A stretch of DNA of 64,000 bases from NCBI GenBank assembly GCA_021234155.1, contig JAJEKV010000017.1:2848885-2912884 (forward strand). The letters are read 5' to 3'. Below, one piece after another: positions 16,122 to 63,498 of this stretch. The translations under genes and the position numbers were made by a program. Within the stretch, counting starts at the first letter, position 1. Every line of letters starts with the position of its first letter. The notes under the pieces are model-generated. The model did no database searches, had not been told where the DNA came from, and was given only the letters and a program-made list of their open reading frames with translations. Origin of the DNA: Isoetes taiwanensis (lineage: Eukaryota > Streptophyta > Lycopodiopsida > Isoetales > Isoetaceae).

Positions 16122-16240
16122 AATATGTAGCATTATAACAGGGGGTTTTTTTCTGTTTTTGTACTGTTTTCTCTAAGGTTTTCATATGATTTGGTGGCCG
16201 TATTCATCGAGGTGTACTAAATAGTATTTTTAGAGTGCAT
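16122..16240 (+). repeat. Conserved left head of composite element A
   Basis: Begins AATATGTAGCATTATAACAG followed by GGGG and a T-rich run. It continues through TTTTCATATGATTT and TACTAAATAGTATTTTTAGAG and ends at AGAGTGCA. The same order of blocks occurs at 34543-34661 and 61120-61238. It may be the left terminus recognised during mobilisation. Confidence 0.75.
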
Positions 16241-16928
16241 CCTTTTGTTAGCCGTTGATTTTAGAAAAGGGGGCAAATCCTGTGGTGAATAATTAGTTTT
16301 AGGGTTTTTTTTAGGGTTGTGTGGATTAGGGTTTGGTCTGGTTTTTTTTAGGCTAGGTCGAAGCAGGCAAATTCCTAGGCCTATATTTTTGTTAATTCTC
16401 GCCATGGCAGAGATTATGAATGCCTGCTCATAGGAACCGTCCGAAATTGCTGGAAAAGAGGGGAAAAGCTTTGAGGTAGAAGTTTGCCGGAATTGAAGCC
16501 AAAAACAAAAAGTAGTTTTGCTTCGTGAAAAGGACCGATGGGTGGGTTCCTATCTTTGAATTTACGTCTACATCAGGCTTCTATTCCGTTTCCCTTGAAA
16601 ACTTTGGCTCTTTAGCTAATCCATGAATATCTAGCCAGATATGATGGGTGGGTTCCTGGCTAGATCGTTGAGTCTTTATGTGTAATGTGTCTTCTCTGTG
16701 AGTCAAAACTGTAAAAGACATGGAGCTCAAAGGTGGGTCACACCAGAGAATGACCAGGGATTATGCAAACTGACAGACGCTTTCTCCAAAGTTTAAGTGA
16801 TCCAAATCTCAGATTCAAGCAAGATCGTCTGCAGCCATTTTTGTTAGAGTTTTTCTTGGTTGTCTGGTGAAGGACTCTGCAGCAGTATTGAGCATGTTCT
16901 TCATGCATGTTCGTGCGACTGAGAATCT

Positions 16929-17740
16929 GTGAGTTTAAAACCCTATGCCTTTGATGGAAAAGGTTTTGAGGGGTGGAAGCAAATGATGTGTCGGTTTCTA
17001 AAAGCAGAGCTTGTTTGGCAGATTGTTGATGGCGTTGAGCCATGCCCCAAACTTGAAGACGAAGACGAAACTGACGTGGATCAGTTGAAGGCACAACTCT
17101 TGTGGCAGTAGCGTGACGACAGAGCCCTTTCTTGCATCGCCATGTGCCTTTCAAAGAATCAACTTCAACTTGCCAAAGGTGAGCTTGATTATGGAAGCAA
17201 ACACCTCTGGGATTTGTTGAATCACAGGTATGGCAAACATAGTGAAGTGGATATTATGCAGCTTTTGAATGAATTAGAAGATATTCAATATAATGATCGT
17301 GATGACCTCAAGGTGCATATCTCCAACCCCACTAATTCTGCTTCTTCTTCTGCTCCTGCGATCAAACAAGCAGCCCAATTAGTAGAAGCCTAGGGTCAAC
17401 TTCAGAAGTTCCTATCCAAGCTATTGGGATCTTTCGACTGCCTCTTGCAGATGGAAATTTTGCTCACGTCCCAAATGCTTTGTTGGTTCTACAATTGAGG
17501 AAGAATAAGTACTGACCAACAGATAAACTTTTTTTTTTATCAAGACTCAGTCTATTTTTATGCTTCAGATGCTAATGTTTCTGATACTTTGCTTGCTCAG
17601 GGCACTCGCAATGGAAATCTTTATGAACTTCCTCTTCCTTCTTTTGAAGAAACTGCCTACTTTGTCAATAGTGATGCAGCCTCCATCCAATTATGGCACC
17701 GCAGATTGGCCCATGTCCATACCCGTCTTTGGCTTTATCG
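16929..17740 (+). mobile_element. Ty1/copia gag and pre-integrase fragments carried as cargo (fossil)
   Basis: YAFDGKGFEGWKQMMCRFLKA, WQIVDGV and LWDLLNHRYG are typical of copia gag (UBN2-type). Further on, IGIFRLPLADGNFAHVPNALLVLQL and SIQLWHRRLAHV match the gag-pre-integrase region. Pieces only, in a broken state, with the intervening polyprotein missing. They lie between the head and the PPR piece of composite element A. Confidence 0.65.
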
Positions 17741-18050
17741 AGGGGCGGGCGGTTCATCTTCACATTAATAGAGGTTTACACAGTAGTCCCTTTATTAGGA
17801 ACCTGCTCATTCAGATGTATGTACGTGGACAATGATAATTTCAGCTTATGCCCAAAATGGGCACGGTGATGAATCTTTGCGTCTTTTCCACAAATTGTTG
17901 GATGATAATTTCAAATCAGATAAGATCACCTTCATCACAGTCCTTGATTCTTGTTCCAAACCACCTGTCCTGGAAGAAGGTAAGCTGGTTCATGGACATA
18001 GGTAAGCTGGTTCATGGACATGTAGTTGTTAACAGATTTCAAATGCCCTT
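17741..18050 (+). pseudogene. PPR (pentatricopeptide repeat) gene fragment, captured
   Basis: Translated in two frames, this gives PLS-type PPR text: GFIEGRAVHLHINRGLHSSPF and RNLLIQMYVRG, then AYAQNGHGDESLRLFHKLL, DKITFITVLDSCS and LEEGKLVHGHVVVNRF. This is the plant pattern of E.G+.VH, N.Li.MY, AYAQNG, F..L, and TF..VL..C. Such proteins bind organellar RNA. The fragment covers about two repeats, contains stops after VRG and at least one frame change, and is joined directly to copia sequence (LAHVHTRLWLYRG). Its second half (from 17936) is repeated in inverted orientation at the right end of the element (19553 leftward). Confidence 0.7.
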
Positions 18051-19553
18051 TCTGAACTTGGCTGCGGGATGGGTATGCATCAGCTCACATTCGAAGAAGT
18101 GCAACGACTTATTGTTAGAGGGAAAAAAACCTTGGTGATAATAACCTGGAGCGTGCTCAGTATATGGAGCAACTTGTTAACTTGTTTCGAATTATCCGTT
18201 TTTCAAATTTCTGGAAACAACCATTAGGAATAGGGATTACCCAACTTTGTTATAAAAGTACTTGTGACATTGCCAATATCTAGCATTATAACAGGGATAA
18301 TGCCATAATGTGGTTTTCCCAAAGAAGAATTTGCAATCTTGGCAGCTCGGGGATGATTGTTTTTGATCCTATGAATATTCTTATTTATTTATGCAATGGG
18401 AATAATTTGTTTGTCTTGATGTTATTGTGCTTTTTAGTAATTAATATTTAGGCCCATAAAGTTTATCTATGTTTGCTTTAGTTAGGGCCCGAAGGGCCCA
18501 AAATTTTTTTTAATATAACAATCAACATACAACTACCATTAACGTTATTAACACAAACCATTGCATTTAACACATTTAAATTAAAATCCCCCTTAAACCC
18601 CCTTGGGTTTGGGTGCATATTCACACGGGGGGTTACTCCGGGCAACGAGAGCTGTCGGATAGGCATATTTGCCCGTTATTCCAAGATTTGGACCGTACAT
18701 AGCGATCCTCGTTTGTGGGGTATGCATGTACAAGTTTCTGTATACTGTATATTAAAGTTTGCAAAATACTATAAGGTTTGAGAGAATGTACTTAATGGTG
18801 TTAATTTTGTACATGTATTGTAAATATATTTTTGGAGCTCTCGCTGCCCTACGCAACCCCCCGTGTGAATATGCACCCAAACCAAAGGGGGTTTAAGGGG
18901 GATTTTAATTTAAATGTGTTAAATGCAATGGTTTGTGTTAATAATGTTAATGGTAGTTGTATGTTGATTGTTATATTAAAAAAAAATTTGGGCCCTTCGG
19001 CCCCTAACTAAAGCAAACATAGATAAACTTTATGGGCCTAAATATTAATTACTAAAAAGCACAATAACATCAAGACAAACAAATTATTCCCATTGCATAA
19101 ATAAATAAGAATATTCATAGGATCAAAAACAATCATCCCCGAGCTGCCAAGATTGCAAATTCTTCTTTGGGAAAACCACATTATGGCATTATCCCTGTTA
19201 TAATGCTAGATATTGGCAATGTCACAAGTACTTTTATAACAAAGTTGGGTAATCCCTATTCCTAATGGTTGTTTCCAGAAATTTGAAAAACGGATAATTC
19301 GAAACAAGTTAACAAGTTGCTCCATATACTGAGCACGCTCCAGGTTATTATCACCAAGGTTTTTTTCCCTCTAACAATAAGTCGTTGCACTTCTTCGAAT
19401 GTGAGCTGATGCATACCCATCCCGCAGCCAAGTTCAGAAAGGGCATTTGAAATCTGTTAACAACTATATGTCCATGAACCAGCTTACCTATGTCCATGAA
19501 CCAGCTTACCTTCTTCCAGGACAGGTGGTTTGGAACAAGAATCAAGGACTGTG
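17936..19553. repeat. 717-bp-arm palindrome (right end of element A)
   Basis: The left arm 17936-18652 and the right arm 18837-19553 are reverse complements with very few differences, around a 184-bp loop. The inner 170 bp of each arm and the loop are the core shared with elements B and C (GGGTGCATATTCACACGG, TTAAATTAAAATCCCCCTTA, GGGCCCGAAGGGCCC). The outer about 550 bp is private to this copy and includes the PPR piece. The right arm ends at the junction with Ty3 pol. A motif TAGCATTATAACAGGG resembling the head occurs inside each arm (18282 and, inverted, about 19196). Confidence 0.9.
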
Positions 19554-22050
19554 GAGAAAAAAAATGGTGCTTTAAGAATTTGCATTGACTATCGAGACCT
19601 CAACAAAGCTAACCATCAAAGATTGTTACCCTTTGCCCTTTTTAGAAGAGATCTTATATGCTGTAGCAGGTAAAGAGGTGTACTCATTTTTGGATGGCTT
19701 CTCAGGATTCAATCAGATTAGTATTAAAGAAGAAGACCAACCCAAGACCTCTTTTATTACCCCTTGGAGAACTTATGCAATGAAAAGAATGCCTTTTGGA
19801 CTAATGAATGCACCTGCTACTTTCCAGAGAGCCATGGATGTTATTTTTAGGCCTATGTCTCCTCAAGAATTCAGAGTTTATTTGGATGATCTTTGCTTAG
19901 GATCTCACCCTACTAATCATTTGGAATTGTTGGCAAAAATATGTTCTTTGTGTAGGGAATCTGGAGTCAACCTTAATCCAAAGAAATGTATTTTTTTTGC
20001 ATCCAAAGGACAACTTCTGGGACACGAGGTATCCAACAATGGTATACAGCAAGACAAGAAAAAAGGTTGAAGCTCTCAAAAATTGGTGCCCCCAAAAACT
20101 TGAAGCAGTCAAAAGTTTTATTGGCATGACTAGTTTTCTTAGGATGTATATTCCTAATTTTGCTCACATTATAAGTCCTATTTCTAAGCCGACAAGAATA
20201 GGCGGTGGGATTTCCAAATCGAGAGCAAGTATGTTCCCTGCCACATGGTCATCAGATTGCCAAGAGTCTTTTGAGTTGCTTATAAAGTCCATTTGTGAAG
20301 CAACTCTCCTAAAAAAACCAGATTTGGCCAAGCCATTTGAAGTCTACATTATTATTACTAAAAAGGCCATAGGCTTAGCTATTCTGCAGGACAAGCACAC
20401 CATAGCTTTTGCCAACAAATAGTGGAGTTCAACTGAAGAAAAATACACCAGAATGGAGAAAAGTGATGTTTGCTCTCATGTTTCTCATTGATGACAAGGT
20501 CATTTATTATTAAAGAGTTCAGCCTCAAGTTTATATGAAGCAAAAATCCAACAGGTTTGTTATTTGGTAAGGCCATCTCTAAACCAAAAATTCAAAGGTG
20601 GGCTTGCAAGTTACAAACCTTTGATATTTCTATAAAAGAGTTACATCAAGAAGAGTCCCAATCTTTTATTTACCTTATATTTTCTTTGACCATGAGGATG
20701 TAGTAGAAGTTGTTGATTTTGTGGATGCTTTAGCTTATTTACAGCAGGTGTGATGATGAGCAGGGCCAACAGATCTGGCAACTACCTATAAAGAATTTTC
20801 TACAATTCAAGGAGATGCCCTCGATTGACCTCGAAATCAAAAAAGGAGATTTAAAGAAAAGTGCGTTCAAAATGATTAATGATGTTTTATGTAAAGTCAA
20901 CAGGGATGGACTATTATTGAGGTGTGTCAATGAAGAAGAATCTGCTTTGATCATTAGAGAAATGCATGAAGGAGTATGTGGAGGCCATTTTGCTGGAGAT
21001 ACTACTGCCAAGAAAATTCTCAGGTCAGGTTACTATTGGCCTACAATATTTAGAGATTGTTATACTGCTATTAAATCTTGCCACAAGTGCCAAATATTTG
21101 GCAAAAGAATCCTTCTCCCAGCTGCACTAAACCCCATAATTTCTCCAGGACCTTTTCAAATTTGGGGATTAGATTATATTGGTCCTATTAACCCCTCTTC
21201 TGCAGGGCAACATCAGCACATTATTGTAGCTACAGATTATTTTACCAAATGGGCAGAGGCAATTCCTTTGAGACAGGCTAATGCCTTTACAACAGCAAAG
21301 TTCTTACATGAGTATATTTGTGCACGGTTTGGTATTCCTCTACAATTACATTCTAATAGAGGTACTCCTTTTGTGAATGAAGTCATTGCTAATTTATTGA
21401 CCATTCTTAAAGTCAAACATACCAAGAGTTCCTCCTACTATCCCCAGGGTAATGGTCAAGCAGAAGCTACTAATAAAGTTTTGAAGGGCATTTTGCAGAA
21501 AACAGTGGATGATAATAAAAAAGATTGGCATGTTAAACTAGTGGATGCCCTATGGGCTTATAGAGTCACCATCAAAGCAGCAACCACTCACACCCCTTTT
21601 AACTTAGTTTATGGCATTGAAGCTGTGCTTCCAGTAGAACTTGAGCTTCCATCTCTAAGGTTAGCTCATAAGTTGTGTTTGCCTTTTGAGTATGCCTTGC
21701 AGGAAAGACTGGATACCCTTTTGCATTTAGAAGAATATAGAATGGAAGCTGAGAATGCTAATTTGCTTAAAAAAGCCAAGGATTTGGCTGCTTTCAAAGC
21801 TGCTCATAAAATACAAGGGACCTTCAAGACTGGAGAATTAGTTCTAAAATGGAATAAATCAAGGGAGGATTCAGCTAGTAAGTTTGAAAATCTTTGGGAG
21901 GGCCCCTATGAGGTGTTGGAACCTGCAGGCACCAATTCTTATTGGTTGAAAGAATTAACTTCAGGGATGCCACTTCCAAATCCTATCAACACTATTCACC
22001 TGAAGAGGTACTGGGATCAGCACATTTGCTTGTCTCTTTTTATGCTCTAG
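19554..22050 (+). mobile_element. Ty3 pol, part 2: reverse transcriptase, RNase H remnant, integrase (fossil)
   Basis: The RT core reads KKNGALRICIDYRDLNK, YSFLDGFSGFNQI, MPFGLMNAPATFQRAMD, then FRVYLDDL (the YLDD catalytic motif) and LLGHEVS. A weaker RNase H remnant follows near 20330-20520. Integrase spans about 20815-22050, with the HHCC-type zinc region (HEGVCGGHFAGDTTAKKIL, CHKCQ) and the D,D,E core (GLDYIGPI, FGIPLQLHSNRGTPF, YYPQGNGQAEATNKVLK). A C-terminal part has GELVLKWN and FENLWEGPYEVLE. The region is inactive, with several breaks. Confidence 0.88.
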
Positions 22051-22059
22051 AATTTAAAT

Positions 22060-22766
22060 AAGTTAGAATTAAAATTAGGCTTTAGGTAGATTGGATTTCA
22101 CCCTGTTTTAAATTTAGAACTAATGTCTTCATTAAGTTTATGTTTGCAGGTTAGCCAGTATGAAGGATGAGGGAGCACCCTTTTTTCCATTTTCATTCAC
22201 CTATTTCATTGTAGTCCTGCCCCCATTTAGCCATGCTCTTCCATTTTATCTCCCCAAATGTGCACTCTGCAAATTCAGCTTCACCATCATAGCAGAGTTG
22301 CAAGATATTAAGACTAACTAGTTTGTATGTTTCCATGACAGGTGCACCCTTTTCCCATCTTTATTCATCTGCCATAAGTAGCCCTGCCTTTCATTTGACC
22401 TTTTCTTCTTGTTCTTTCATTTCCCTAAGAAGAAAGCACTCTGCAATTCAGCTTTTCCATCCTAGCAGAGTTGCTCTTGGAGATATCAAGGAGACACACA
22501 TTCTTTTGTTTTGGCGAGACTTCAACATTCTCACATTTCCCCCCCATACACCCCATTCCCATCACTATCCTATCATACTCATACTCATTCTCATTCTTTT
22601 TCACTTATCATATCCCACTTACATCTCCCCTCCACCATATTCACTTCTGTTCCACCAACATTTGCACATTTCATTCTCCCTCTACCATGACTCTCACTCA
22701 AGCACCTTGGCACAAGATTGAAGACCCTTTATGGCTGAGGGGACCAGCCATTCTTTTGTTTTGGCG
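22060..22766 (+). repeat. Ty3 3' non-coding region with a diverged tandem repeat
   Basis: Two copies of a block of about 140 bp (GCACCCTTTT..., CACTCTGCAA, TTCAGCTT, ATAGCAGAGTTG) lie at about 22178-22315 and 22342-22490. A GC-poor, pyrimidine-rich stretch follows, up to the point where the right LTR sequence begins. The words ATTCTTTTGTTTTGGCG occur at both ends of the pyrimidine-rich stretch (near 22500 and 22750). Confidence 0.6.
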
Positions 22767-24498
22767 GGTATTTTATTTAAGGTCAAAGTGTTTAGTCAAG
22801 AATATGCTCTAGAAGATTCTAGGTTAAGAAGTTTGGAAGGCATTTTTTTGAAGATTGGAGGTTCAAAGTTTGGAAGACCCTATGGTATTTGGTTCCATTC
22901 CCTAGCCATTCTCACTCATTTTTATTCTTGCCCTTTTAAAATTGCCTAGCCTTTTTTTTCCTATGTTTATACTTCCTTTGTTCACTCTTGCATACCCTAT
23001 CATATCTTGCCTAATTTTTCTTCCCTCATACATCCTTATCCCTCCATAATTTACTCCCACCATTTCCCCCATGTCTTTTGCCTTTTTTCCTATGCCATGT
23101 TCTTGCAAATCCCTCCCCATACCTATTCACCATTGTGCTATAAAAGGGCCATGTTATGTGGAATATTCCCCCTCATAATGCTTAAAATCGGGTATATTCC
23201 CCGAAAAAATTAGGGTTGCCCTTGCTCCAATGGCTCACTCCTTCAATGTTTTTATGGGTAACCCTTCCAAACCTTAGTCTAGCTTTTCAAAAACTCAAAA
23301 TACGGAATATTCATGGTTTATACTTTGAAAAATACGGTGACCGTATCGTGCAGATCTTCGAAAATACAGCTGAGCAGACCTAAAACTGGAAACAAGCTTG
23401 AATCACGCCGGAACCGAGTTTTTAAACCTGAAGACCTACCTAAACCTGGATCCCTGCTCTTAAGCATCAAATTAAGCCTAAATCTAAGCCCTAAGATGCC
23501 GGAATCATAAAATTCAAACTCATATACCAGGGAATCAATAACAGAAGTTTTTCGAAGGCCCAGACGCGTCAAACCTCGACATTGATACATGCTGAGCATG
23601 ATCTGAAGACGTTCTTGAAGTTTCTAAGTGTTCCACAGTTTAATCTGAGAAGATTGGACTGATACTATTGATTTGATATTGTTATTGACCTCCTAAGCTA
23701 CATTATTGACTAATATATGTTCCTAAGATCCTTATTCACCTTGTATTACCTTCATATCAATGAAAATTGATTGCCAAGTATTCAAAAAGTCTACTGTCAT
23801 GATCCTTTAGCATTCTTGTATCACAAACATTTTTACAGAAAAGAAATTCCCTATTTTTTCTTGCATAAGACCATTTGCATGTCATATCCCATCTTATTTG
23901 CACCTGTGTGCACAAAAATTTCAAAAAAAATCCATCTCAAACTCGAGTTACCATTTTTTGCATTCTGTATGATACAAATCCAGACTGATATCCACAAAAC
24001 AGTGCCAAAAAAATAGTTTTAGAGATTCAAATTTTGATTTGGCAGCATGCTCCTTACCTCTGAAGTCTAAAAAGCATCCTAGTTTTGGAATTTCCTTGAA
24101 ATTCAATTTACAACTCAAGTTACAAAACTCTGAGCTCTGTTTGCCACATTGACTGGTATTGACCAAAAATTGACCCAACTTTGAGATCGAATATCTCACA
24201 GATCAAGACTCAGACTTGGTCAAGTTCTTTACCTTTGCTTGCCTACAACCTTTTTTGAGTAAGTCACAGTCATCTGACCTTGGAAATCAATCTGCATACG
24301 AGATCTGTGTTGATTTGAACAGGGGGTCCAAAATCCAGAATTGGGAAAGGTATAAAACTCTATGATTCAGCTTTTTCTTTGGAAAATTCCTGTGTAGATT
24401 GATCACCTTAAGTGATCTGGAGGTTCTAACCCCAACTTGGGTGAAAACTCAAGTTGGCTTCTTGTGTTTGACTCTCTAGGCCAGGTTGAGGGTCAACA
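22767..24498 (+). repeat. Right LTR of the Ty3 element (shortened)
   Basis: Matches the left LTR from 11492 to 13221 with roughly 20-25 differences by eye and ends GGGTCAACA at the GAGAG target duplication. Sequence corresponding to the outer part of the left LTR is not present. Confidence 0.88.
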
Positions 24499-24872
24499 GA
24501 GAGTGAGGAGTTAGATGAGGAAACAGAAACTCATCGACTTTTTTATGAAGATATGTAAAAAATGTCGTCTTATAGGCCTGAGAGGCCTCCACAGACGTAA
24601 TACATTTCATTTCATTTCATTTCTCTGTGTGTGTGTGTGTGTAAAAAACAGGTCATATCATATGACAAAGAAGCCACTTAAATTCATAAATTGTTCACTG
24701 AACAAAAACATCTCATTGGGATGCATAAATTACATGAATTCACATGATATAATATAATATAAAAAGATTTTTTCCCAACTATCTGAAAACAGGAATTTAT
24801 TTTCTGGAATAAAAAAAAACATCTAGCATGGTAAATCTCAGGAAGTTCAAAGGAAGGATCTCACCACATCCT
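24499..24872 (+). mobile_element. LINE copy c, right part, and shared tail
   Basis: Continues copy c after the Ty3 insertion: the acidic codons, stop, (ATTTC)n tail near 24600-24622, TG run and AT-rich tail identical to 4749-5120 at all but a few sites. Homology ends at CACCACATCCT (24872). Confidence 0.85.
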
Positions 24873-27475: not shown

Positions 27476-27483
27476 GTGGGAAT

Positions 27484-28393: not shown

Positions 28394-28401
28394 GTGGGAA
28401 T

Positions 28402-28742: not shown

Positions 28743-28745
<3 letters not shown>
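28402..28745. other. Non-coding, continues the purine-rich array
   Basis: Composition and words (ACAAGGGTAGT(A/G)AAGGAAAA, CACACATCAG) resemble the array to the left, so the hAT-type element appears to have landed in it. No gene seen. Confidence 0.4.

Positions 28746-28807
<62 letters not shown>
28746..28807 (+). repeat. (TG)n microsatellite, 62 bp
   Basis: A pure TG run that abuts the broken edge of the LTR at 28808. Confidence 0.95.
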
Positions 28808-28809
<2 letters not shown>

Positions 28810-33790: not shown

Positions 33791-34542
33791 ACCAATATGT
33801 CTCGCAGACTATTTGTATGTGACACGGTCAAGGTGATGTTGTTGGCGAAAAGCTAGACAAAGGAAATAATATATCGCTGTCCGTGCATGCAGTGGCGATG
33901 GGGTCTTCCTGTGTTATGAAAGGGATTTGGGGTGAGACGCACGCATCCTAGTCCGAAGATTACCGGGAAGTCGTTCAACGTACGGCTTTGAAGCTTGGTT
34001 TGTTGGAGGAGTGGGCATTCGAGACTCTACGTGGAGTATAGCGAGCCTTGAAAATTTGAAAAACTGTGTTGAACCTGCACTTAATGCCTATTATGCCATT
34101 AACTGCTGCGTATGCTGCCCATCAAGTACGAGCCGGACCGGTAAGGTGGCTGATCGAGCTTTCGATTACTTCAAATATCTTTCATGGGTTGAGTATCGGA
34201 TTCGAAAGAGTCGCTGGTGTCTGAGGAAGAGGTGGATGTGACCGCAGGGCGTGGACGTTTAAGACATTGAGAGTGCGCAGGCACACGAGAGTCCGTAGGC
34301 GGAGGTGCGCATTGCTATCTATAAATGAGAAACTTGTATGAAACAAATCAAGAATAATTGAGCATACACAATTAACATCCATAGGTAGAAGATCCTAACG
34401 GTGGTCTGCGGAAACAAGATTATCAGAGTGACACAATGGTAGTTTGGATAAGGAGAGTCGAAGTGAATGGTTTATCCAAAATTATAGGAGGTGCCCTGAT
34501 GATTCTAGGTACTTAGCAAAGTAAAGAGCATGATAAAACATG
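33791..34542. other. No gene seen
   Basis: Mixed-composition DNA between the direct repeat and composite element B. ORFs here are short and not recognised. Confidence 0.4.
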
Positions 34543-34725
34543 AATATGTAGCACAATAACAGGGGGTTACTTTTAGATTTTTATACGTTTTTTCACATGG
34601 TTTTTCTATGATTTCGTTGTTGTATTCGTTGAGGTATACTAAATAGTATTTCTAGAGTGCAACCTTTATGGGCCGTTAATTTTTGTTGGTTGGAACAATC
34701 CGAGGGTTGTTGTCTTTCTCTGCAT

Positions 34726-34870
34726 GTGTTTGTGCATGAACACTGCGCATGTGTATGCATGTGCATGTGTGTGCATGTGCATGTTCATGTGCATGTGCAT
34801 GTGTATTGTGCAAGTGCAAGTGCAAGTGCAAGTGCATGTGTGTGCATGTGTGTGCATGTGTGCATATGCA
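34726..34870 (+). repeat. (GTGCAT)n / (GTGCAA)n microsatellite
   Basis: A degenerate run of TGTGCATG and AAGTGC units. It generates Cys/Val/His-rich spurious frames on both strands. Confidence 0.9.
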
Positions 34871-35440
34871 TGTGTACTTGCCCTCTTGGATTCTTATTGC
34901 CGGAGTGGATTTTACTACCACGAGATGGATTTTTTACTCACACTTACAAAGGTATTTGTTTTTTAATGTTTCTTCAGTTAGCATAATGTTTTCTTTTACA
35001 AGGTATTGGTTTCCTGATTCTACAATGTAGTGCTGCAAAACCCCTTTTTGTTTCCTTCCTAAGATTTGCTGCAGATTCAAGTTTAGGCCCTCTGTTTGCT
35101 TCCAACTCTTAGATATTCCCCGGGTCACGGGATTGTTCATAGCAAACCGACCTTTAGCTTCAATCAACAAACGGATTCTTATATGCACAACAAAGCGGAT
35201 TATTCCACCCTTTTCCATGTCATGCGATCACCAAACAAGCGGGGCCACAAGAATGCATTTATATTGTAGGTTTGGAACTTTAATCGAACCATAAGGTGAA
35301 TCATGCATTACCTTTAAGCTAGAGATGGAGCATCCAAAATCATATGGATTGATAAACAATGGTATCATTGTGAAAGAGAAATAGTTGTAGCAGAAGTAAC
35401 AATATGTAGCATAATAACAGGGGGTTTTCTTTGTGTTGCA

Positions 35441-36472
35441 AACTTTATGACTTTCAGAATAATGGGATCAATCTGCTCTATCTTTATGGTAACTTTTACT
35501 TATGTTCTATTTGTTTTATTGTGATCAAATTCAAAAGCTATAGGTGATGAAAGCCTCAAATGAATTCTAGTTTTTTTTTGGTTTGAATTCTAAAATTTTT
35601 GTCACATCGGGGGTGGCGTCCCTAAGGCCCCCGGGAATAATTTTTTGCAACACAAACCATTAACATCCAACATATAAAAATTAAATCCCCCAACACATAA
35701 CAACCATCACATAATAATCATTGACATTAACAACCAACACATAACTACCATTGACATTAATTAACACAATCATTGGGTCCAACACATTTAAATTAGAATC
35801 CCCCTTAAACCCCCTTTGGTTTGGGTGCATATTCACACGGGGGGTGACATAGGGCAGCGAGAGCCCTCATAATTGTATTTTGCACGTACGAAATCAACAC
35901 CATATAGTATTCCGCTTGAAATCTTATAGTATGTTGCGAATCTTGTTATACAATATAGCAAATTTTGTACTTGCATACCCCACAAACGAGGAACTTTACG
36001 TACGGTATAGATTAAGGAATAAGGGGTGAATATGCCTATCCAACAGCTCTCGTTGCCCGGAGTCACCCCCCGTGTGAATATGCACCCAAACCAAAGGGGG
36101 TTTAAGGGGGATTCTAATTTAAATGTGTTGGACCCAATGGTTGTGTTAATTAATGTCAATGGTAGTTATGTGTTGGTTGTTAATGTCAATGATTATTATG
36201 TGATGGTTGTTATGTGTTGGGGGATTTAATTTTTATATGTTAGATGTTAATGGTTTGTGTTGCAAAATTTGGTTGGCCTTCGGGGCCTTAGAGACGCCAC
36301 CCCTGCAGTGACAAAAATTTTAGAATTCAAACCAAAAAAAAACTAGAATTCATTTGAGGCTTTCATCACCTATAGCTTTTGAATTTGATCACAATAAAAC
36401 AAATAGAACATAAGTAAAAGTTACCATAAAGATAGAGCAGATTGATCCCATTATTCTGAAAGTCATAAAGTT
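35441..36472. repeat. Palindrome with about 425-bp arms (right end of element B)
   Basis: Left arm 35441-35863 and right arm 36045-36472 are near-perfect reverse complements around a loop of about 180 bp. The inner part is the shared core; the outer part (AACTTTATGACTTTCAG...) is private to this copy. Beyond 36472 the sequence (CAAAGCTAAGG) is not mirrored. Confidence 0.9.
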
Positions 36473-54480: not shown

Positions 54481-55860
54481 AAGAAAAAAGGGACCTTTAT
54501 TACATTGCATAACTCGACCACAGCCCCTGGCGTGCCTTTTTGCTAGTTTGTGACCAAAGTATATTTGCTTCTTGAGATGTGTGGATCTATACGATGTTAG
54601 GCTAGTTCCACATGAAGAATAACCATATGCTCCACTCGTTTGTAGACCTATTGTGTTACAAACAACAAATTTTTTACTATGATTTTTGAACAATCTAAAC
54701 ATTTCTAAACTATGCCATTTGTAATTAATGGAACTTACCAGATGCCATAGAAAAGCCTGGATAGTCATGAATAGTGAAACATAGCATACCATGTAGCGTG
54801 AAATCATGTGGCTCTCTTGAAATATCATACATATGAATCCCCTTCCATAACAATTTCAATTCCTCTATCAAAGGTTCCATATATACATCCATATTTTTAA
54901 CTTGATATTTTCCTGCAAAATGCATACATGTTTATTGGTAAATGGATTTGAACGGCTTCAACAACTGCATCTTCTCCATTCAATTCAATTCATATTTATA
55001 AATAGCTATTGAATAAAAAGTAAAATAAGTACCTGAAACAATCAACGTCAACATGGTATGACCAGGTTTGGTAGCCATCCACGGTGGAATATTATAGTTC
55101 ACAATAGCTATTGGCCACACACTATGTTTTGATGCCATAGATCCCTAGGGGCATATTCCACTGAGTCCTAGTCCAAGTCTAATATTGCGAGACTCCAATT
55201 TAAATTGTGGCCATTTTTCTTCGATATTTTTCCACGACTCTCCATGTGCAGGCATCCTCATTTTTCCATCAGTACTACGGTTCTTTGCATGATAATTCAT
55301 AAATGAGGCAAGGGATGGAGATCGAAACATATGACGTAAACAGGAATGATAGGCATGTGTCGCAATGTTTTCCTTGCCACCTTCGACCTCCTGCCCTCCT
55401 CATAACGTGGCTCAGTACATTTTGGACATGATTGATCTCCCGCATAATTGTTGCAAAATAATATGCAATCATTGATGCACGCATGTATACAATTATATTC
55501 TAGGCCCAATGAATGAAACAACTCTCTTGCCTCTCTCCTCGACTTTGGAAGACAATGCCCATCTGGTAGTATTTTGCCTAGTGAACTAAATTAATATTTT
55601 CATGTGTTAGTACTTATTAGTAATTATGTGCTTAAGAAAACACAAGTTATAAAAGTTGTACATACATACCTGAAAAGCTCAGAGACGCTATTGTTGCTCC
55701 AACCAACTTTATGTTGAAGATTCAAAATTAGCAAACACGTGGCAAGACGAGACACACGCGCATTTGGATACAATGGGGTTGTTGCCTCATTGCATAGGAA
55801 TTTTGCCTTATCCCTAAATCCATTGTCAAACTCGTGATTTCCATCATCGTAATCTTCTGT
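54481..55860 (-). pseudogene. CACTA transposase, N-terminal half
   Basis: From right to left: FRDKAKFLCNEATTPLYPNA, LATCLLILNLQHKVGWSNNS (the N-terminal block ahead of the core); FHSLGLEYNCIHACINDCIL and SCPKCTEPRYEEG (the C.NDC and CP.C signature); KMRMPAHGESWKNIEEKWPQ, RNIRLGLGLSGICP; MDVYMEPLIEELKLLWKGIH, DFTLHGMLCFTIHDYPGFSM; then LQTSGAYGYSSCGTSLTSYR, YFGHKLAK. These are diagnostic of Transposase_21 (TNP2). There are stops and frame changes between blocks. It is cut at its 5' end by the Ty3 element. Confidence 0.85.
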
Positions 55861-56493
55861 GTTAGTCCTGTACGTCCTGGTACAGAACTATTCATGCATA
55901 TGACAGACCAAGTCAAGGCCAAGGACCCACAGTCAGGCACAGGTCAGTCGTCAAAGGCCCCGCAGAAGACCAAGCAGACCACGCAGTCAAAGACCACGCC
56001 TGCCGTCAAGAGGAGGCGCTCAGACAAGTGACGGCATGTCACCGCCTGCGTCAGCGTCAGCGTGATTTCAGGCATTTCAAGAGGCACCGCCAGCATTCCT
56101 ACAAATCAGGCCTCCTTCCAGTAGTCGGCACCGAAATCAGTCAGAGTGTCTATATTGGGCCAAAGGCCATTATACTATATATATGAGTAGAGCTAGCACA
56201 TGGGTTTTTAGATGAGTTTTGAGTCTTGTCTCACTTCAGTTTTCTCTCGATAGCGAGAGCTCATGTACCTTCATTGACATCAAGGAAGTTGTTCTCATTA
56301 TTATGATCTCATTGTTCTCTTTTGTTGTCTCTTCTCTTTTTCCTTGTTCTTTTTGCAAATCCCGCGTGACACAGCTCCCGGATTCTCCTGTTAGATCCAA
56401 GGGTCCTCACAGAGGGCTGTCTTGCAGGAGTTCCCGAACCCAGACCCCAAACACTGTCGCCGCTGCCGGGTCTGATCTTTCTTTTCTTTCCAT

Positions 56494-58345
56494 CATGTCG
56501 GCTCGAGGATTCACTCCTGAAGAACTTCTTTGCCAAACGGCGGCTCGACTGGAGCGCCATCAACATCGCGAGGTTGTTCGGGACATGTATGACACTGCTT
56601 ATGACATTGAGGGTGGTCGTGTCTGCTCCAGAGCTCAGTCGGCACCTCCTACCCCTCGTGTTCATTCTCGCCCAGGGTCTCCCCCTGTGTGTAGGCATTG
56701 TTCTCAACCTCAATCTCCACAGCATACCCCTGTTCAGCCCACGCCTCACTATTTCCAGACTCCTGACAGCACCTACATTACTACACCTTCCGGCCACACC
56801 CCTCAGCCGTCACAATCTTCTTCACCTCCTGCTAGGATGGGCTACCATCAAGTGTCCTTTGGCCCTCCCCACGTTCACGAGTTTCAGTCTTCTCCATCTT
56901 TTCAGCACGCTCTTCCTGTTTACCAAACCACTGATCTCAAGCCTAATGAGGAGGGCTCTCATGACCCTTCCCCACCTGATGCTACTTTCTTTGGACCACC
57001 GGGTTTTTCAGTTCCACCCACTTGCTCTCAGTCTCAGGCAGTTCCACCTCTCTATGCTTCTGCATATCCTCCACCAAATCCACCTGTCTATGCGCTCGTT
57101 CCGCTTTCTCTCCCACTCATAATTTGAAGCTGACTTATCCCACTTTTGGCAACACTAAAGGCAAACCTCTGGATCAGAGTGCTCAAACCCACATGGAGGA
57201 ATTCGAAGCCTTGGCCATTCTGAATGGTCATGCGCAGCCACAACTCAAATTTCATCTCTTTTCGACCACGCTCAGAGGCGCCCCTCATCAGTGGTTAATG
57301 GCCAACAAAAGTCACTGGAAACAAAGTTGGCATGAAATGAAAACTGCCTTTCTGTCTCATTATGGCACCACGGACGATGATCAGTTACTCCTCAAGCAAC
57401 TCAATGACCTTCAGCAAGAACCCATGGAGTCAGCCAGGGACTTTGCGGATCGTCTTCACATTCTTGTCAATAAACTCCAGGAGTACCCCACGCAAAGCCA
57501 GATTCTTGTCTGGTTTCTGCAGGGCCTTCCTCCTGCCATTCAACTCATGACAGAATACCTGCGTCCAAAGTCTCTGGAGCAGGCCATTGAATTGGTCAAT
57601 CACTCAGTCAATGTTTCTTCTCGAGGTGTTGCTCTCACTGAACTCTCTTTCATGCCCCCCATCATGGTTCCACAAAATTCTGTTCAGCCTCAGTAAACAA
57701 ATCCACAACGCTCACAGATCTGGTGTAATATTTGTAAATATCAAGGCCATCTGGCAAATGAATGCAACTCCTCAAATGGACCTCCTCACTGTAAAAGGTG
57801 CAATATGTGCAATCACGCCACGGAGGAATGCACTCGTTCTCATCCTACACCCTTCAGGAATAAAATGGTCTTTCAAGTTCAGACCACGCCTCAACAACAA
57901 CAGTCATATCCGCCTCCGCAATATCAAACTCCACCCTCTCAGCAGTATCAACAAACGCAGCAATCTCAGCAGCCACGAGGACAAGGCAACCGTCCTCCCT
58001 TTGATCCTTCAAAGGCTCAATGTTATCATTGTCATGAATGGGGTCACACCACCACGGCGTGTCCTCAACTTCCTCAAGTTCAACTTCAACTTCCGGGCTC
58101 AAATCAGCCCGCTTCCGTACGCCTCACGGCTTATCAACTATGGGTGACCAATGGTAAACAAGGCCCCCGTCCTGTTTTGAGGAAGCCACCACGGCTGCCT
58201 CAACAACAGCGTCCTCAGCAAGTTGCATCAACCTCCAATCCTATGGATCAACAAGCTCAAGAGGAAATTTATCAGGCTCTCAACCCTCCAGTTCAGCAGT
58301 CAAATTGGGTTGGTTTGGTCTCACGTCAGACACGGGCTTCACGCC
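56494..58345 (+). mobile_element. gag region of the second Ty3 element (fossil)
   Basis: A Pro/Ser-rich leader (MSARGFTPEELLCQTAARLE) leads to the capsid domain: MEEFEALAILNGHAQPQLKF, LRGAPHQWLMANKSHWKQSW, HEMKTAFLSHYGTTDDDQLL, ESARDFADRLHILVNKLQEY, LVWFLQGLPPAIQL. A Gln-rich region with two zinc knuckles follows. Codon use is GC-richer than in the 13-kb gag, so the two elements are different lineages. Confidence 0.75.
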
Positions 58346-58799
58346 CTTGACAATCATCCCTCACGACACGCAGCCAGCTTTTGCTGTAGAAACAGTTCCT
58401 CATGAAGATGATAAAAAAGTTCATTTCGCGCCTGATCTTGACAAACTCATGCCTCACGTCATGCCTAAAGTGAGACAAAGTATTCTTAAACTCATGCAGG
58501 TTGCGGAAGGTCGCACATTGGCAAATGTTCATGCCACCACTCGAGCTCAGCAGCGTCAGGCGGCGCCGTCTTCATCCACCAGCACGGGCTCTCAGCCATA
58601 TCCAAATATTGATGCTGAGGTCGAGCTCCTCAAAGAAGTCTCCGCCTCTTTACCACAGACTCTGGCTCCACTGGATCCTGCGGACCCCTTTTCTCATGTT
58701 CCTCTGGAACTTCAGGAAGAACTTGCCAAGATCAAGATTCCTTTAAGCCTGGCCACCATTTTGAAACTCTGTCCGGCTCTTAAAGATCAGTTACCTCTT

Positions 58800-61102
58800 C
58801 CCACGGTTCTGGTAGGAGCTGTTGCGACCTCAACACCCATGGTGCATGCCACGGTGGGCAATCAGCAAGTCAATCATGTCCAAATTGATGGTGGTAGTGC
58901 CGTCAATCTTATTACTGATAAGCTCCGAAAGCAATTGGGCATCAAACAATTGTACCGTGCCCCTTATGACATCAAGTCGGCCAATGGCCATATCAGGCGC
59001 CCTCAAGGTGTCACTCCTCTTCTCCATATCAGCATTGGTGATCTCAAATTCCCCTTGGAATTTGGTAAAGAAGGCATCACCACGGATCCCGCTAAAATCA
59101 GTTGTGTATTAAAGGCTCAAGCACCATCTAATATCAAAGAGACACGTTCTTTCCTGGGTAAGGTTAATTACTATTCCACCTTCATTCCTGGACTTGCAGC
59201 TATCGCTGATCCCATTCATAAACTCACGGGTGATGAATCCACTTGGGCTTGGAATCCCCAAGCGGAAGCTGCTTTTCAGAAGTTGAAGCTGTTACTTATC
59301 CAGGCCCCGGTACTTGTTCCTCCTCAATGGGACAAGCCCTTTCACGTTCATGTTGATGTCTCAGCCTTTGCCATTGGTGCTGTTCTTTCTCAGGCCTATG
59401 ATGAACACACGGATAAACCGATCCGCTATGCCAGCCGGAAACTCAATCTTGCTGAGCACAACTACTCTGCCACGGAACGAGAAGCTTTAGGCTTAGTTTT
59501 CTGTGTCCAACGTTTCCGACATTATTTGTTGGGCAGCCAGATCAAGTTCCTTGTTGATCATCAAGCTCTTCTTTATTTGATCAACAAAGCCACGCCCACG
59601 GGTAGAATTTCCCGTTGGGTCCTTCTTCTGCAAGAATTCGCTCCCTTCGAAATTGTTCATAAGGCATGCAAGTCTCATGTGGTGCCTGATTATCTTTCAC
59701 GCATCCACACGGATGATCCCTCCACGGGTCCTTTCCAGACGCTCAATTGTTCCTGGTCACGGCCACGCCCCATTGGTTTCACAACTTTCAGCAATATCTT
59801 CTCACTGGCGCTCTTCCTCCAGAAGATCCGACGCTCTCTCCAGATAAGCTTCGCTCCCACCGCCGTCAGTTTCTCAGAGAGGTCCGTGACTACACTATGG
59901 TTGTAGGCCATCTCTACAAACGCGGTAAAGACATGGTCCTCCGTCGTTGTGTCCTTCCTCATGAGGTGCTCGATATTGTTCGACAAGCCCACGACGGGCT
60001 TGGTGGTGGTCATTTTAGTGGTGACGCCACGGCACGCAAAATTCTTCTGGCAGGATATTTCTGGCCCACGCTCTTCAAAGATGCTCACGCTTATACTCGC
60101 ACGTGTGACGTCTGTCAGCGTGTGGGAAAGCCCACGGCCCGTGACGCTCTGCAATTGACGTCGATCGCCATGCCACTTCCCTTCAGCAAATGGGAAATGG
60201 ACTTTGTGGGGCCCATGGACCCACCGGCGCGGCACCCCCGTGCTCGCTACATTCTGGTCATCACGGATTACGCTACCAAATGGGCGGAAGCTTGTGCACT
60301 TCCAGACAACACTGCTGCCAGTACCGCCAAGGTTCTCTACACACACATCATCACGCGTTTTGGTTGTCCCACGGAACTTGTTAGTGATCGTGGCGTGCAT
60401 TTTGTAAATCATATCAAGGAGCTAACAGATTATCTTCACATACAGCACAGGAAGAGTACACCTTACTATCCTCAAGGAAATGGCTTGGCTGAAAGTACCA
60501 ACAAAACTCTCATCACTGTTCTAAAGAAAATTTGTGACACTTCTCGCACAGATTGGCAAGACAAGTTGCCTACTGTTCTTTGGCCTTACAACACCAGTTT
60601 TAAAATTGCTACTGGCCACACTCCCTTCAAATTAGTTTATGGTCAAGAAGCTCTTATGCCCTTCGAATATATTCTTCTGACTCTCCGTTTCCAACTTGCT
60701 ACAGCACATAATCCACCTGCTACACTCAAAGAACGGGTTTATCAATTGGAACAGTTGGATGAACTTCGGTGAGATGCTTACATTCGTGTTCTTCATGGAC
60801 AACAGTTGCAAAAATCGTTGCATGACAAACGTCTCAAGACAAAAACATTCAAAGAAGGTGATTTGGTTCTTCTTTATGATTCTCGTTACAAAAATTTTTC
60901 GAGCAAGTTAAAGTTCCGATGGCTTGGTCCTTATCAAATTATTCAGGTTGTTCAACCCAGTGTTTTCAAGCTGGCTGAGTTAGATGGCACTCCATTACCT
61001 ACTCCGATTAATGGCTTTCGCCTTAAGCAATTTCATACAGACGCTACAGACAGTTCTACACAAGATGCACCACAAAGTTCTGAATCCACAGATAGTGACT
61101 AA
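58800..61102 (+). mobile_element. pol region of the second Ty3 element (fossil)
   Basis: Retropepsin-like QIDGGSAVNLITDKLRKQLG; end of RT and RNase H (IRYASRKLNLAEHNYSATER, FRHYLLGSQIKFLVDHQALL). The integrase has its zinc region (AHDGLGGGHFSGDATARKIL, CDVCQRVGKP) and catalytic core (WEMDFVGPM, VITDYATKWAEA, FGCPTELVSDRGVHFVNH, YYPQGNGLAESTNKTL). A C-terminal domain contains GDLVLLYDSRYKNFSSKLKF and RWLGPYQI. It closes with TDSD at 61102. Inactive. Confidence 0.85.
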
Positions 61103-61119
61103 AGACGCATATTTATATT

Positions 61120-61238
61120 AATATGTAGCATTATAACAGGGGGTTTTTTTTGTGATTTTATACGCTTTTTGGCATGGTTTTCATATGATTTCATGGGCGT
61201 ATTATGCGAAGCATACTAATCAGTATATCTAGAGTGCA
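61120..61238 (+). repeat. Conserved left head of composite element C
   Basis: The same block order as 16122-16240 and 34543-34661, roughly 75-80% similar by eye, ending at AGAGTGCA. Confidence 0.75.
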
Positions 61239-61383
61239 CTCTACATTTTTATGGTCTAAATCCCATATCCCCAATGGTTTACCCCTTTTTATTTTTATTC
61301 CTTTTTATTTCTTTTTATTCACTTTAGGGTTATTTTAGGTTACTTTAGGGTTCGTGGAGGTGGCCATACCTCCCACATCTATG

Positions 61384-61760
61384 CCATCCGCCTCCCTGGG
61401 GTTGAGCCCTTTTGGCCAATGCAACCGGAAGATAGAAGGGAAAAGAAGCTGCCCTCTTGTTTCGATAAGGATATATTCAAGGAGCTTGATTCTTGGCTAA
61501 GCAGCAGGCCTGTAATCAGTCCAAGTTCTATTTTAGATTGTGAGGTTGATTTGGAGAATTTGGGCATTGATCCAAATTTGGGGCAAGAGCTAAGAACTGG
61601 TGCGATAGATGCCATCCGTATGCAATCAGGTCAAAGATCCTCTCCTTTTTCCTTGTCCTGGTAGATTAAAGTAAAGGATGATTACGTTTTGGTCGAAATG
61701 GATGAAAAGAGGCATTTTTGGATTATGGCGAACCGACCAACACGGTAAGTAGTGACCCTT
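61384..61760 (+). pseudogene. Captured exon-like fragment, unidentified
   Basis: Open from about 61384: RREKKLPSCFDKDIFKELDS, WLSSRPVISPSSILDCEVDL, ENLGIDPNLGQELRTGAIDA. A second short piece near 61668-61736 (VKDDYVLVEMDEKRHFWIMA, NRPTR) ends at a good splice donor. The sequence looks like plant coding DNA, but I recognise no family. It may come from the same source gene as neighbouring cargo or from another. Confidence 0.4.
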
Positions 61761-62128
61761 TTTGTGTTGACCACGGATATAGAAGGAACCCCAAGCCACA
61801 AAAACAAAGACTGTTTTTGATGGAAGATGATCTGAGAGGCCATGCATGCAATGGCAAAGGCGATTGAAGAGCTTGTGAAAACCCTTCAAGGTCCCACCGA
61901 ACTGTAAGCACACAATGATCCTATGCACACATCTCAGTCCGGTAGAATTTGGTGGAAGTGAAAGGAGACAACCTCATTGTGCCGATCTGCTCCGGTTCGT
62001 TACGCTCCGGCTCATCGAACATGTAAGTTATCACCTTCTCGGGTTACCATCTCTATTGGAAGACATTCGGATAAAGTCAAGTTTTCGATTCACTATACAA
62101 TCTTGTCCTGCGTAAACCCGGTCTGATA

Positions 62129-62422
62129 ATGTCTGATTTCATGCGGTCATTGAACAAGAAACCCTTAGAAGCATCTATTAAAACTTCAATAGATAAATTT
62201 CAGCTGCTTCCAGCGTTTCTAAAGGTATGTTATTTCCTCACTGAAACGAAATTGTTTCCATGTGAGGCACGTCATTATGGTTTTCCTTGCAGGTCAGGGG
62301 GCTTGTTAAGCAACACGTTGATTCTTTTGATTATTTGGTTAACTCGAAAATTAAAAAGATCATCCACGCCAAAAGCAAATGAAAAAGTAACAAGTGACGT
62401 GGATCCCAATTTTTATTTAAAG
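62129..62422 (+). pseudogene. NRPC2: RNA polymerase III second-largest subunit fragment (captured)
   Basis: Exon 62129-62224 encodes MSDFMRSLNKKPLEASIKTS, IDKFQLLPAFLK. A 68-bp intron (62225-62292, GTATGTT...CCTTGCAG) follows. The next exon continues VRGLVKQHVDSFDYLVNSKI, KKIIHAK and, after a one-base insertion, ANEKVTSDVDPNFYLK. This is the N-terminus of plant NRPC2, whose known start has the same KFQL.P.FLKVRGLVKQH.DSF.YF pattern. It ends at a donor-like AAAGTGAGC. About 90 of some 1,100 residues are present, so it is non-functional. Keeping the intron shows DNA-level capture, not a retrocopy. It lies inside composite element C. Confidence 0.85.
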
Positions 62423-62537
62423 TGAGCTTGCAGCAGAGATTTTCTATTGTTTCATTCTTACGTAAAAGCTCAATATATTTTCCTTCTCCCTATTTGCATG
62501 GCGTTATCCTACATATAATTGGATAGGAATCTAAGGC

Positions 62538-62668
62538 AATGCGTATGTGAAATACAACTCTACTTGGCTATTATGGCTTCTACATTTGGCTGTATATATG
62601 ATTAATGCGTATGTGAAATACAACTCTACTTGGCTATTATGGCTTCTACGCTTTGGTGATATATGATT
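62538..62668 (+). repeat. 66-bp tandem duplication
   Basis: AATGCGTATGTGAAATACAA and the following bases, 46 in all, are repeated exactly with a period of 66 (starts 62538 and 62604), with a near-identical spacer ATATGATT. Confidence 0.9.
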
Positions 62669-62735
62669 GCCATAGTAAATTATAAATGATTAGTTAGTTC
62701 ATTCTTCTTGGTTAGTTTTCCAACAAGGGTGGCTT

Positions 62736-62815
62736 CAACGTAGCATAGTGGAAGAGCAATTGCGGTTATCTAGCATGCTAAAACTACTAGGATATGATGG
62801 GTTTAAATCCCCTAA
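62736..62815 (+). other. tRNA-like sequence (SINE head or tRNA fossil)
   Basis: GTAGCATAGTGGAAGAGC fits an A box and GGGTTTAAATCCC resembles a B box about 45 bases later. Stems are poor, so a functional tRNA is unlikely. Confidence 0.35.
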
Positions 62816-63038
62816 GATAAGGTGTGGTAACATCGAAGCTGAAGAGGCGCAATTAAATTACATTATCCTATAATATTATACTTATTCAGGCTTCTTTACA
62901 GATTTCCTTTATTTTTGTTATAATGTTAAATATTAGATTTCACATATTTGCTACATGTTTTGCATGTTTTACATGTTTTTACGTATGTTTTTTTTCGGGC
63001 CCGAAGGGCCCAAAAATTTTTTTGGTATAACAACCAAT

Positions 63039-63498
63039 ACATAACTACCATTAACATTAATGAACACAACCATTGGGTTTAACATATTTAAATTAAAATC
63101 CCCCTTAAACCCCCTTTGGTTTGGGTGCTTATTCACACGGGGGGTGATGTAGGGCAGCGAGAGCCCTTGTGATTATATTTTCCACGAGAGCCCTTGTGAT
63201 TATATTTTTCACGTATAAAACCAACACCATATAGTATTTTGCTAAAAATCTTATAGTATTTTGCATATGTTGTTATACGGTATACCAATTTGTATACTTG
63301 CATACCCCACAAACGAGGAACTTTACGTACGGTGTAGATTAAGGAATAAGGGGTGAATATGCCTATCCAACAGCTCTCGTTGCCCGGAGTCACCCCCCGT
63401 GTGAATAAGCACCCAAACCAAAGGGGGTTTAAGGGGGATTTTAATTTAAATATGTTAAACCCAATGGTTGTGTTCATTAATGTTAATGGTAGTTATGT
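63039..63498. repeat. Palindrome with 126-bp arms (right end of element C)
   Basis: Arms 63039-63164 and 63373-63498 are nearly perfect reverse complements with the shared core words (TTTAAATTAAAATCCCCC, CCAAACCAAAGGGGG). The GGGCCCGAAGGGCCC word lies just outside the left arm (62999) and is not mirrored on the right. A 27-bp duplication (CACGAGAGCCCTTGTGATTA...) lies in the loop at about 63155-63210. Confidence 0.9.

Follow-up and report, generated by a model that had tools for sequence, protein, structure and literature searches.

The window (the whole 64-kb stretch of Isoetes taiwanensis DNA that was analysed) contains three composite elements, termed W1, W2 and W3, each consisting of a head, cargo and a palindromic core in which two inverted arms flank a loop module, M; loci from elsewhere in the genome carry L-numbers. 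The parts of the three elements are as follows:

16122..16240, + strand: W1 head, left terminus AATATG...
16241..18484, + strand: W1 cargo; copia gag, GAG-pre-integrase, PPR and other pieces on the head-sense strand (basis Pfam)
17931..18621, + strand: W1 left palindrome arm; made up of private cargo and the shared core arm, putative template of the right arm
18485..18499, + strand: W1 short hairpin GGGCCC-GAA-GGGCCC before the left core arm (direct reading)
18622..18867, - strand: W1 loop module M, CACACGGGGGGT...ACCCCCCGTGTG; in the opposite orientation to those of W2 and W3
18868..19558, + strand: W1 right arm; near-copy of the left arm, terminating in 5 bp of microhomology to the gypsy target
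34543..34661, + strand: W2 head
34662..35440, + strand: W2 cargo; second short head inside (35401-35437)
35441..35833, + strand: W2 left arm; private plus core
35834..36076, + strand: W2 loop module M
36077..36472, + strand: W2 right arm
61120..61238, + strand: W3 head; a gypsy integrase-like ORF lies upstream of it (by eye)
61239..62996, + strand: W3 cargo; includes a piece resembling the second subunit of RNA polymerase and holding an apparent intron (by eye)
62997..63133, + strand: W3 hairpin (62997-63011) and left core arm
63134..63403, + strand: W3 loop module M; its 3' end is paired in the fold
63404..63498, + strand: W3 right arm; 0/95 differences to its own left arm

The initial annotation described one head at 16122, 34543 and 61120 with a palindromic core downstream of each; both are confirmed, and all three belong to one very large family. 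Pairwise alignments of the heads (16119-16262, 34540-34683 and 61116-61238) span 123-147 columns with 79-81% identity (E 7e-16 to 2e-21), and self-comparison places the inverted arms at 17931-18653/18836-19558 in W1 (98%), 35441-35864/36046-36472 in W2 and 63039-63169/63368-63498 in W3; the W1 core is inverted with respect to those of W2 and W3. Palindromes 1 and 2 include private, element-specific sequence, which palindrome 3 does not, and a PPR frame runs across 17931, the start of the W1 left arm. The head that belongs to palindrome 2 is uncertain because a second short head lies directly to its left at 35401 and both arms of palindrome 1 hold a 22-bp head copy (18275/19193). Pairing the head with a reverse head at 19193-19214 and 62913-62934 would give simple terminal inverted repeats; this reading was discarded, since that second copy carries 5 mismatches (E 0.035) and the element runs past both. 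Rfam (gathering threshold) and tRNA scans of the 64-kb window gave no matches, and self-comparison matched neither head nor core to the window's Penelope-like RT region.

In the 1.66-Gb genome the head 23-mer has 1,278 exact copies (reversed control 0) and 17,070 copies with up to 3 mismatches, and the loop 19-mer has 6,464 copies (control 0); the W1 head is 96-100% identical to 40 scored genome copies. Separate genome searches with head and core, as the initial annotation had proposed, found that most heads pair with a downstream core: among exact heads checked by position the core marker lies 0.8-4 kb downstream in 14/18 and upstream in 1/18, and 17/20 fetched heads have a downstream core, the three without one being L009, L014 and L015. 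This directional pairing speaks against heads and cores occurring independently, whereas the roughly 5:1 excess of exact core (M) motifs over exact heads makes some independent cores conceivable; heads with up to 3 mismatches outnumber exact core motifs. In L045 the 3.07 kb to the left of the core, the side covered, contain no head. The three window elements belong to a very abundant family, rather likely a high-copy, non-autonomous DNA element that carries gene fragments; the literature listings and abstract openings searched contained no paper on a head/core family of this kind.

The left terminus proposed from the window holds as a sharp boundary at AATATG. All 23 of 23 aligned heads begin AATAT[G/C] (L010 lacks the first A) and the preceding bases vary, being G or C in 17/21 and A in 2/21. 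Exact tail-to-head junctions (...CCCCCCGTGTG joined directly to AATATGTAGC...) occur in 22 genome copies (control 0), which suggests, from sequence, that the canonical ends are AATATG...CCCCCCGTGTG; L040 is a tandem dimer in which both units have the same cargo, and of 3,460 exact copies of the tail CCCCCCGTGTG, 3,350 continue with AATA. The five target sites reconstructed (n=5, L024 from its own flanks alone and L021 with a weak right side) comprise losses of 25-29, 9 and ~50 bp, one clean site and one probable duplication of 9-13 bp. Since AAT or A may be common to target and head, the placement of the cut carries an ambiguity of up to 3 nt. The 25-29 bp loss is that of W1, whose right junction shows the 5-bp microhomology when compared with empty gypsy copies, and in 5/5 sites the target continues with A[A/T].

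The palindrome, proposed as the right terminus, does not seem to be a fixed one: it differs in length from element to element, and its right arm has the look of a fresh copy. Right ends fall in the loop, the stem or the right arm, or run on as a private palindrome, and they differ within one lineage (L022/L023/L027; W1/L011), while those of L021, L024 and L028 lie at almost identical loop positions; the end of the W1 palindrome coincides with its insertion junction. Beyond the loop module, left and right arms of ten elements differ by 18 edits in 1,090 (gapped edit distance; 0/111, 0/112, 6/74, 4/97, 0/98, 0/96, 3/87, 4/160, 1/160 and 0/95, over lengths picked by best-scoring extension), whereas the 30 nt beside the loop in the same elements hold 4-12 differences each, 56/300 in total (gapped); in L023 the distal arm has 0/98 and the loop-proximal stem 7/30. 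W3 and L027 carry in both arms the changes specific to W3 or to the lineage of L022 and L027. Arms are also similar between W1-like elements (2-5 of about 110 positions differ, against 12-16 for W2 and W3), so the contrast of own arm with other arm is clearest for W2 and W3; in L019 and L020 the arms are imperfect copies, and the stem asymmetry is weaker in that lineage. The ~245-bp M occurs in both orientations in 5/6 multi-copy cargo lineages, and its fold leaves the 3' end paired (two copies tested, z -5.4 and -7.0).

The cargo, described from the window as different in each element, does vary between lineages; that of L011 is the same as that of W1, and a stretch of ~80-110 bp near the right end of the W1 cargo is common to several elements. 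Pfam domain matches lie at 7 places in 5/6 scanned cargos, all on the + (head-sense) strand and none on the - strand; the RNA_pol_Rpb2_1 match of W3 (E 9e-4) is below the Pfam cut-off. The argument that a retrocopy would have lost its introns is upheld by one piece with an apparent intron, seen by eye. Longer members encoding a Rep/helicase or transposase, which the initial annotation had suggested looking for, were absent from a small search of six Rep-gene upstreams and six element cargos. PF14214 has many representatives in the genome (1,813 candidates, 150 of them scored). In six RepHel genes no link to Helitrons of this kind was found: the head occurred in 0/6 of the 6.5-kb regions upstream, with one weak 22-bp match (E 0.08). 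The six scanned cargos contain no transposition-enzyme domain apart from copia gag pieces, and no reverse transcriptase domain.

Pack-MULEs combine captured fragments with long terminal inverted repeats and a 9-bp target duplication, and foldback elements have long inverted repeats at both ends. The family shares captured fragments with the former and long inverted repeats with the latter, but its long repeat lies at the right end. Pack-MULEs had been set aside from the window, and rightly: no inverted pair joins both ends (23 loci, self-comparison, E 1e-8), and target changes are variable without a regular 9-bp duplication; L013 and L025 contain a second, inverted head. A foldback element was rejected on the right-end position of the inverted repeats, the larger L025 palindrome excepted. 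In AAV and other parvoviruses a self-primed terminal hairpin yields flip and flop orientations (rolling-hairpin replication), a likeness to the present family, in which, however, the hairpin is at one end only, the other end is a plain head, and the element is chromosomal.

Canonical Helitrons (Helitron1) begin with 5'-TC, end in CTRR-3' and insert between A and T without target change; all of these are lacking, and this type was rejected. The aligned heads start AATAT[G/C], the tail at junctions is CCCCCCGTGTG with CTRR at 0/17 right ends listed, A precedes the head in 2/21, and target changes are variable. A 3' hairpin is present, as M folds with its 3' end paired, but it is far larger than the usual 16-20 bp. 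The initial annotation was therefore right that TC...CTRR ends are missing, while other Helitron types are possible, because Helitron2-type ends are non-canonical (PMC5148889). Further likenesses to Helitron1 are gene-fragment capture, tail-to-head junctions, tandem copies and 3' ends truncated or read through, as in Helraiser experiments (PMC4778049); the large inverting stem-loop, the copied right arm, the variable target changes and the absence of a linked RepHel in the small test set the family apart. Among Helitron2/Helentron elements, which are marked by asymmetric terminal inverted repeats and a T-rich insertion site, the short GAA-loop hairpins at FoHeli ends resemble GGGCCC-GAA-GGGCCC by eye, but insertion there is between TTTT and T/C, in TT, or at TNAT/A (PMC5148889), in contrast to the G or C that precedes most heads here. 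Replitrons, HUH transposons reported from lycophytes among others, are described with direct terminal repeats of 5-11 bp and duplications of 2-8 bp (PMC10741241), whereas AATATG and CGTGTG are, by reading, not direct repeats.

The account favoured, and considered fairly probable, is a Helitron-like rolling-circle element that uses its 3' hairpin to prime its own copying, with flip/flop resolution and variable right joining; a rolling-circle or hairpin-priming enzyme remains the best guess for the mover. A putative HUH/rolling-circle enzyme would cut the 5' end of an element bounded by AATATG and CCCCCCGTGTG and join it to targets resembling the element's own tail-to-head junction. The 3' tail would fold back, and pairing of its terminal CGTGTG with the left-arm CACACG would prime a copy of that arm, sometimes of cargo too; the closed hairpin may then be opened at a variable place, inverting M and determining how long the right arm becomes. 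End-joining or microhomology would attach the right end to the target, leaving small deletions or a short duplication, and cargo may be gained by reading from the head through to a more distant tail. Counting for this account are head-core pairing, the 22 junctions, the L040 dimer and AATA after the tail; near-identical own arms, M in both orientations and variable right ends; and the W1 microhomology junction, A[A/T] targets, + strand cargo and the M fold. Counting against it are the lack of a head near six RepHel genes and of an enzyme domain in six cargos, target changes unlike those described for Helitrons, the capacity of gene conversion to homogenise arms, and the fivefold excess of exact M motifs over exact heads.

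An unlikely alternative is a retroelement inserted by target-primed reverse transcription of RNA. The 3' end of that RNA would correspond to the reverse-complement head and its 5' end, often truncated, to the right end; the right arm would form when the end of the cDNA snaps back, and tail-to-head junctions would be template jumps. Such a course fits a precise left and a variable right end, variable target duplication or deletion, the three of 20 heads without a core, and the nearly identical loop position of the L021, L024 and L028 right ends; yet the RNA would have to be antisense, because cargo matches are gene-sense on the would-be cDNA strand and one piece has an apparent intron, poly(A) or simple repeat was looked for at the head and not seen, and plain snap-back leaves M unflipped although 5/6 lineages hold both orientations. 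Inverted repeats are well known to undergo gene conversion and to mediate inversion, which lends some credit to a fixed palindromic right end whose arms are kept alike by conversion, whose M is flipped by inter-arm recombination and whose right ends vary by later deletion; this also predicts AATA after nearly all exact tails and agrees with the small differences among left arms of W1-like elements, but it is improbable given the private cargo in the W1 and W2 palindromes, perfect distal identity beside differing loop-proximal stems (as in L023), and the stop of the W1 palindrome at the insertion junction. That head and core are separate repeats, neighbours in the window by chance, is highly improbable despite the commoner exact core motifs and the headless left side of L045, as it is already contradicted by the directional pairing, beside which stand the 22 exact junctions.

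With the self-priming rolling-circle account, the family appears to build a new mirror-image right end at insertion, unlike the gene-capturing transposons compared. It is tentatively proposed, with some doubt, that this is a plant transposon class combining rolling-circle ends with one-sided parvovirus-like hairpin replication, in which the left end is enzyme-joined and the right end is made at each insertion by self-primed copying and flip/flop of the terminal stem-loop, giving one-ended integration, gene capture and thousands of copies. If true, rolling-circle transposition would be linked with rolling-hairpin replication, and a eukaryotic transposon would have left in thousands of copies a readable record of its self-priming terminal hairpin, opening hairpin-primed end formation to study from sequence alone; lycophytes would also have an additional shuffler of gene fragments, one expected to escape finders built on canonical Helitron ends.

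The positions given for three heads and for three palindromic cores in the initial annotation of the window were confirmed, as follows.

16122, head, and 17936-19553, core: element W1
34543, head, and 35441-36472, core: element W2
61120, head, and 63039-63498, core: element W3

The heads, conserved left termini beginning AATATG, share 79-81% pairwise identity when the three are aligned. The genome searched comprises 1,658,258,908 bases in 1,110 contigs, with the window at C985:2848885-2912884; it holds 1,278 copies of an exact head 23-mer (reversed control, 0), 17,070 copies at up to 3 mismatches (control, 1), and 6,464 copies of an exact 19-mer from the core loop. The proposed pairing of head and core held in a check of the 18 exact heads on C1-C54, where the exact core marker, among the matches listed, lies 0.8-4 kb downstream in 14 and upstream in one. 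Twenty of the 40 heads scoring best for similarity to head 1 were fetched and read fully; a core match follows within about 3 kb in 17, that of locus L025 being a 134-bp piece only, and no core match was found downstream of the heads of L009, L014, and L015. In L009, homology to the cargo (the captured DNA between head and core) of L010 and L012 ends ~1620 bases past the head start; within a few bases of this point lies an exact 13-nt stem motif, GGGCAACGAGAGC, followed by unrelated DNA, and this copy is possibly a remnant of module M, the ~245 bp loop module between the core's arms. Matches to other loci start at most 11 bp from the head start (references W1, L012, and L022); L045, a core without an exact head, has no head in the 3.07 kb to its left, the side fetched.

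Comparison of loci shows that cargo is common only to small lineages. Module M is oriented as in W3 in 12 of 19 elements and flipped in 7 (L009, L014, L015, and L025 omitted), and of the six multi-copy lineages that have M, five contain both orientations. In predicted single-stranded DNA folds of M from L012 and W3 the 3' end is paired (z -5.4 and -7.0).

Cargo lineages and orientation of module M
W1/L011: both orientations
L009/L010/L012: both (L010/L012)
L016/L018: both
L017/L026: both
L019/L020/L021: both (L019-L020/L021)
L022/L023/L027: the only multi-copy lineage without both
L015/L025: partial sharing, 400-bp stretch
L014 with the L010 group: partial sharing, about 250 bp

The tail, the 3' end of module M (...ACCCCCCGTGTG), directly abuts AATATGTAGC in L018 (one mismatch), L025, and L040, the last a tandem dimer whose two units carry the same cargo (95.6% over 1.65 kb); the exact 29-mer tail-head junction has 22 genome copies (reversed control, 0). 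From these junctions we infer that the element unit would be AATATG...CCCCCCGTGTG. AATA directly follows 3,350 of 3,460 exact B-type tails in the genome, a count that takes in left arms of flipped copies, where AATA normally comes next; among 26 tails of either arm from the fetched loci (L001-L008 and L041, as duplicates, omitted), the next sequence is AATATGC in 20, the head in three, mutated AATA[A/G]GC in three, and anything else in none. L039 (C469:40252-49251) is a three-unit tandem array with a 3.3-kb unit, about 460 bp past the core in every complete unit, and ctgtttg directly followed by AATATG at the junction; a read-through concatemer or a tandem duplication is possible. In L025, a larger inverted dimer, an inverted head pair lies between two cores that face one another, and the 1-kb palindrome arms are 90% identical. 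The right flank of L024 carries a diverged head-like sequence (AATATCTAGCATAATAACAAGAGG) roughly 200 bp past the right end.

In ten elements with a comparable right arm, the left-right edit distance past module M is 18 in 1,090 nt (0-6 per element), over distal lengths of 74-160 nt picked by best-scoring extension with a ceiling of 160; the 30 nt beside the loop in the same elements hold 56 differences in 300 (4-12 per element). Between elements the distal stretch shows 2-5 differences in about 110 nt for W1-like copies and 12-16 for W2 versus W3; since W1-like copies differ little, it is in W2 and W3 that the contrast between own arm and other element stands out most. Both W3 arms carry changes private to W3, and both L027 arms carry those private to the L022/L027 lineage. 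The mirrored part of W1 extends >550 bp past the core arm into PPR-containing cargo; the PPR frame enters the palindrome from the left, and the left arm is therefore taken as the template. The right end thus looks newly made. Its position, set by eye where family homology stops, varies even inside one cargo lineage.

Right-end positions (L018 excluded, its module being rearranged)
In loop: L013, L021, L024, L028
In or at stem: L011, L016, L017, L022
In arm: L010, L012, L019, L020, L023, L026, L027, W3
Extended: W1, W2

L021, L024, and L028 are flipped copies with different cargo whose right ends fall in the loop only a few bases apart, at or directly past CTGTAT(ATT), a site that may be favoured for nicking or stopping.

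Compared with the empty gypsy copies L042 and L043 (...GAAATTATT^AATCC..., with C for the last T in W1), the W1 insertion lost 25-29 bp of target, with its right junction over CTGTG. L011 lost 9 bp relative to a window paralogue; L028, compared with the gypsy of the window at about 70% identity, lost none and shares a single G; L021 lost about 50 bp, its right side being weak; L024 probably has 9-13 bp duplicated, as judged from its own two flanks. In all five sites the next target base is A, then A or T, as at the element's own junction, the exact cut being ambiguous by up to 3 nt because the head starts with AAT. G or C precedes the head in 17 of 21 (L018 and L025 omitted). Inspection by eye places an ORF containing an RNase H-like stretch upstream of the RT break in the gypsy hosting W1, and two related ORFs elsewhere in the window, 74% identical in DNA, are reverse-transcriptase-like and presumably Penelope-like by eye.

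11490-13221 and 22767-24498: long terminal repeats of the gypsy, 98.7% identical
779-1957 (+): reverse-transcriptase-like ORF
5078-6022 (+): its relative, the only one matching RVT_1, and only at E 8e-4
3666-4756 and 8529-9619: 1.09-kb direct repeats (99%) around ORF 5078-6022

A six-frame Pfam scan of six cargos gave eight family matches on the + strand, at seven places in five elements, four of them below Pfam's own cut-offs; the - strand of the six gave none, and the L028 cargo none on either strand.

Pfam matches in cargo, + strand
L015: Na_Ca_ex
L016: ABC_membrane
W1: Retrotran_gag_2, gag_pre-integrs, PPR_2/PPR
W3: RNA_pol_Rpb2_1
L024: PPR_2

The RNA polymerase piece in W3 retains an apparent intron (by eye), which argues for capture at the DNA level.

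The chief alternative to the proposed rolling-circle reading is a target-primed retroelement; it accounts for the variable right ends and variable target changes but leaves the flipping of M and the sense-oriented cargo unexplained. A fixed palindrome kept alike by gene conversion is the third reading. The Helitron Rep domain PF14214 is very abundant in the genome, with 1,813 candidates and ORFs of up to 2,964 aa (e.g. L029-L032), although the paper describing the genome (PMC8566536) does not use the word "Helitron" in its main text; none of six RepHel genes examined has a head within 6.5 kb upstream. An HUH/rolling-circle enzyme that would act on the element fits the sense capture, tail-head junctions, tandem copies, precise 5' end, and junction-like targets. 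A 3' end that would fold back and prime its own copying, with hairpin opening at a variable place that would resolve the copied end, fits both the flipping of M and the copied right arm.
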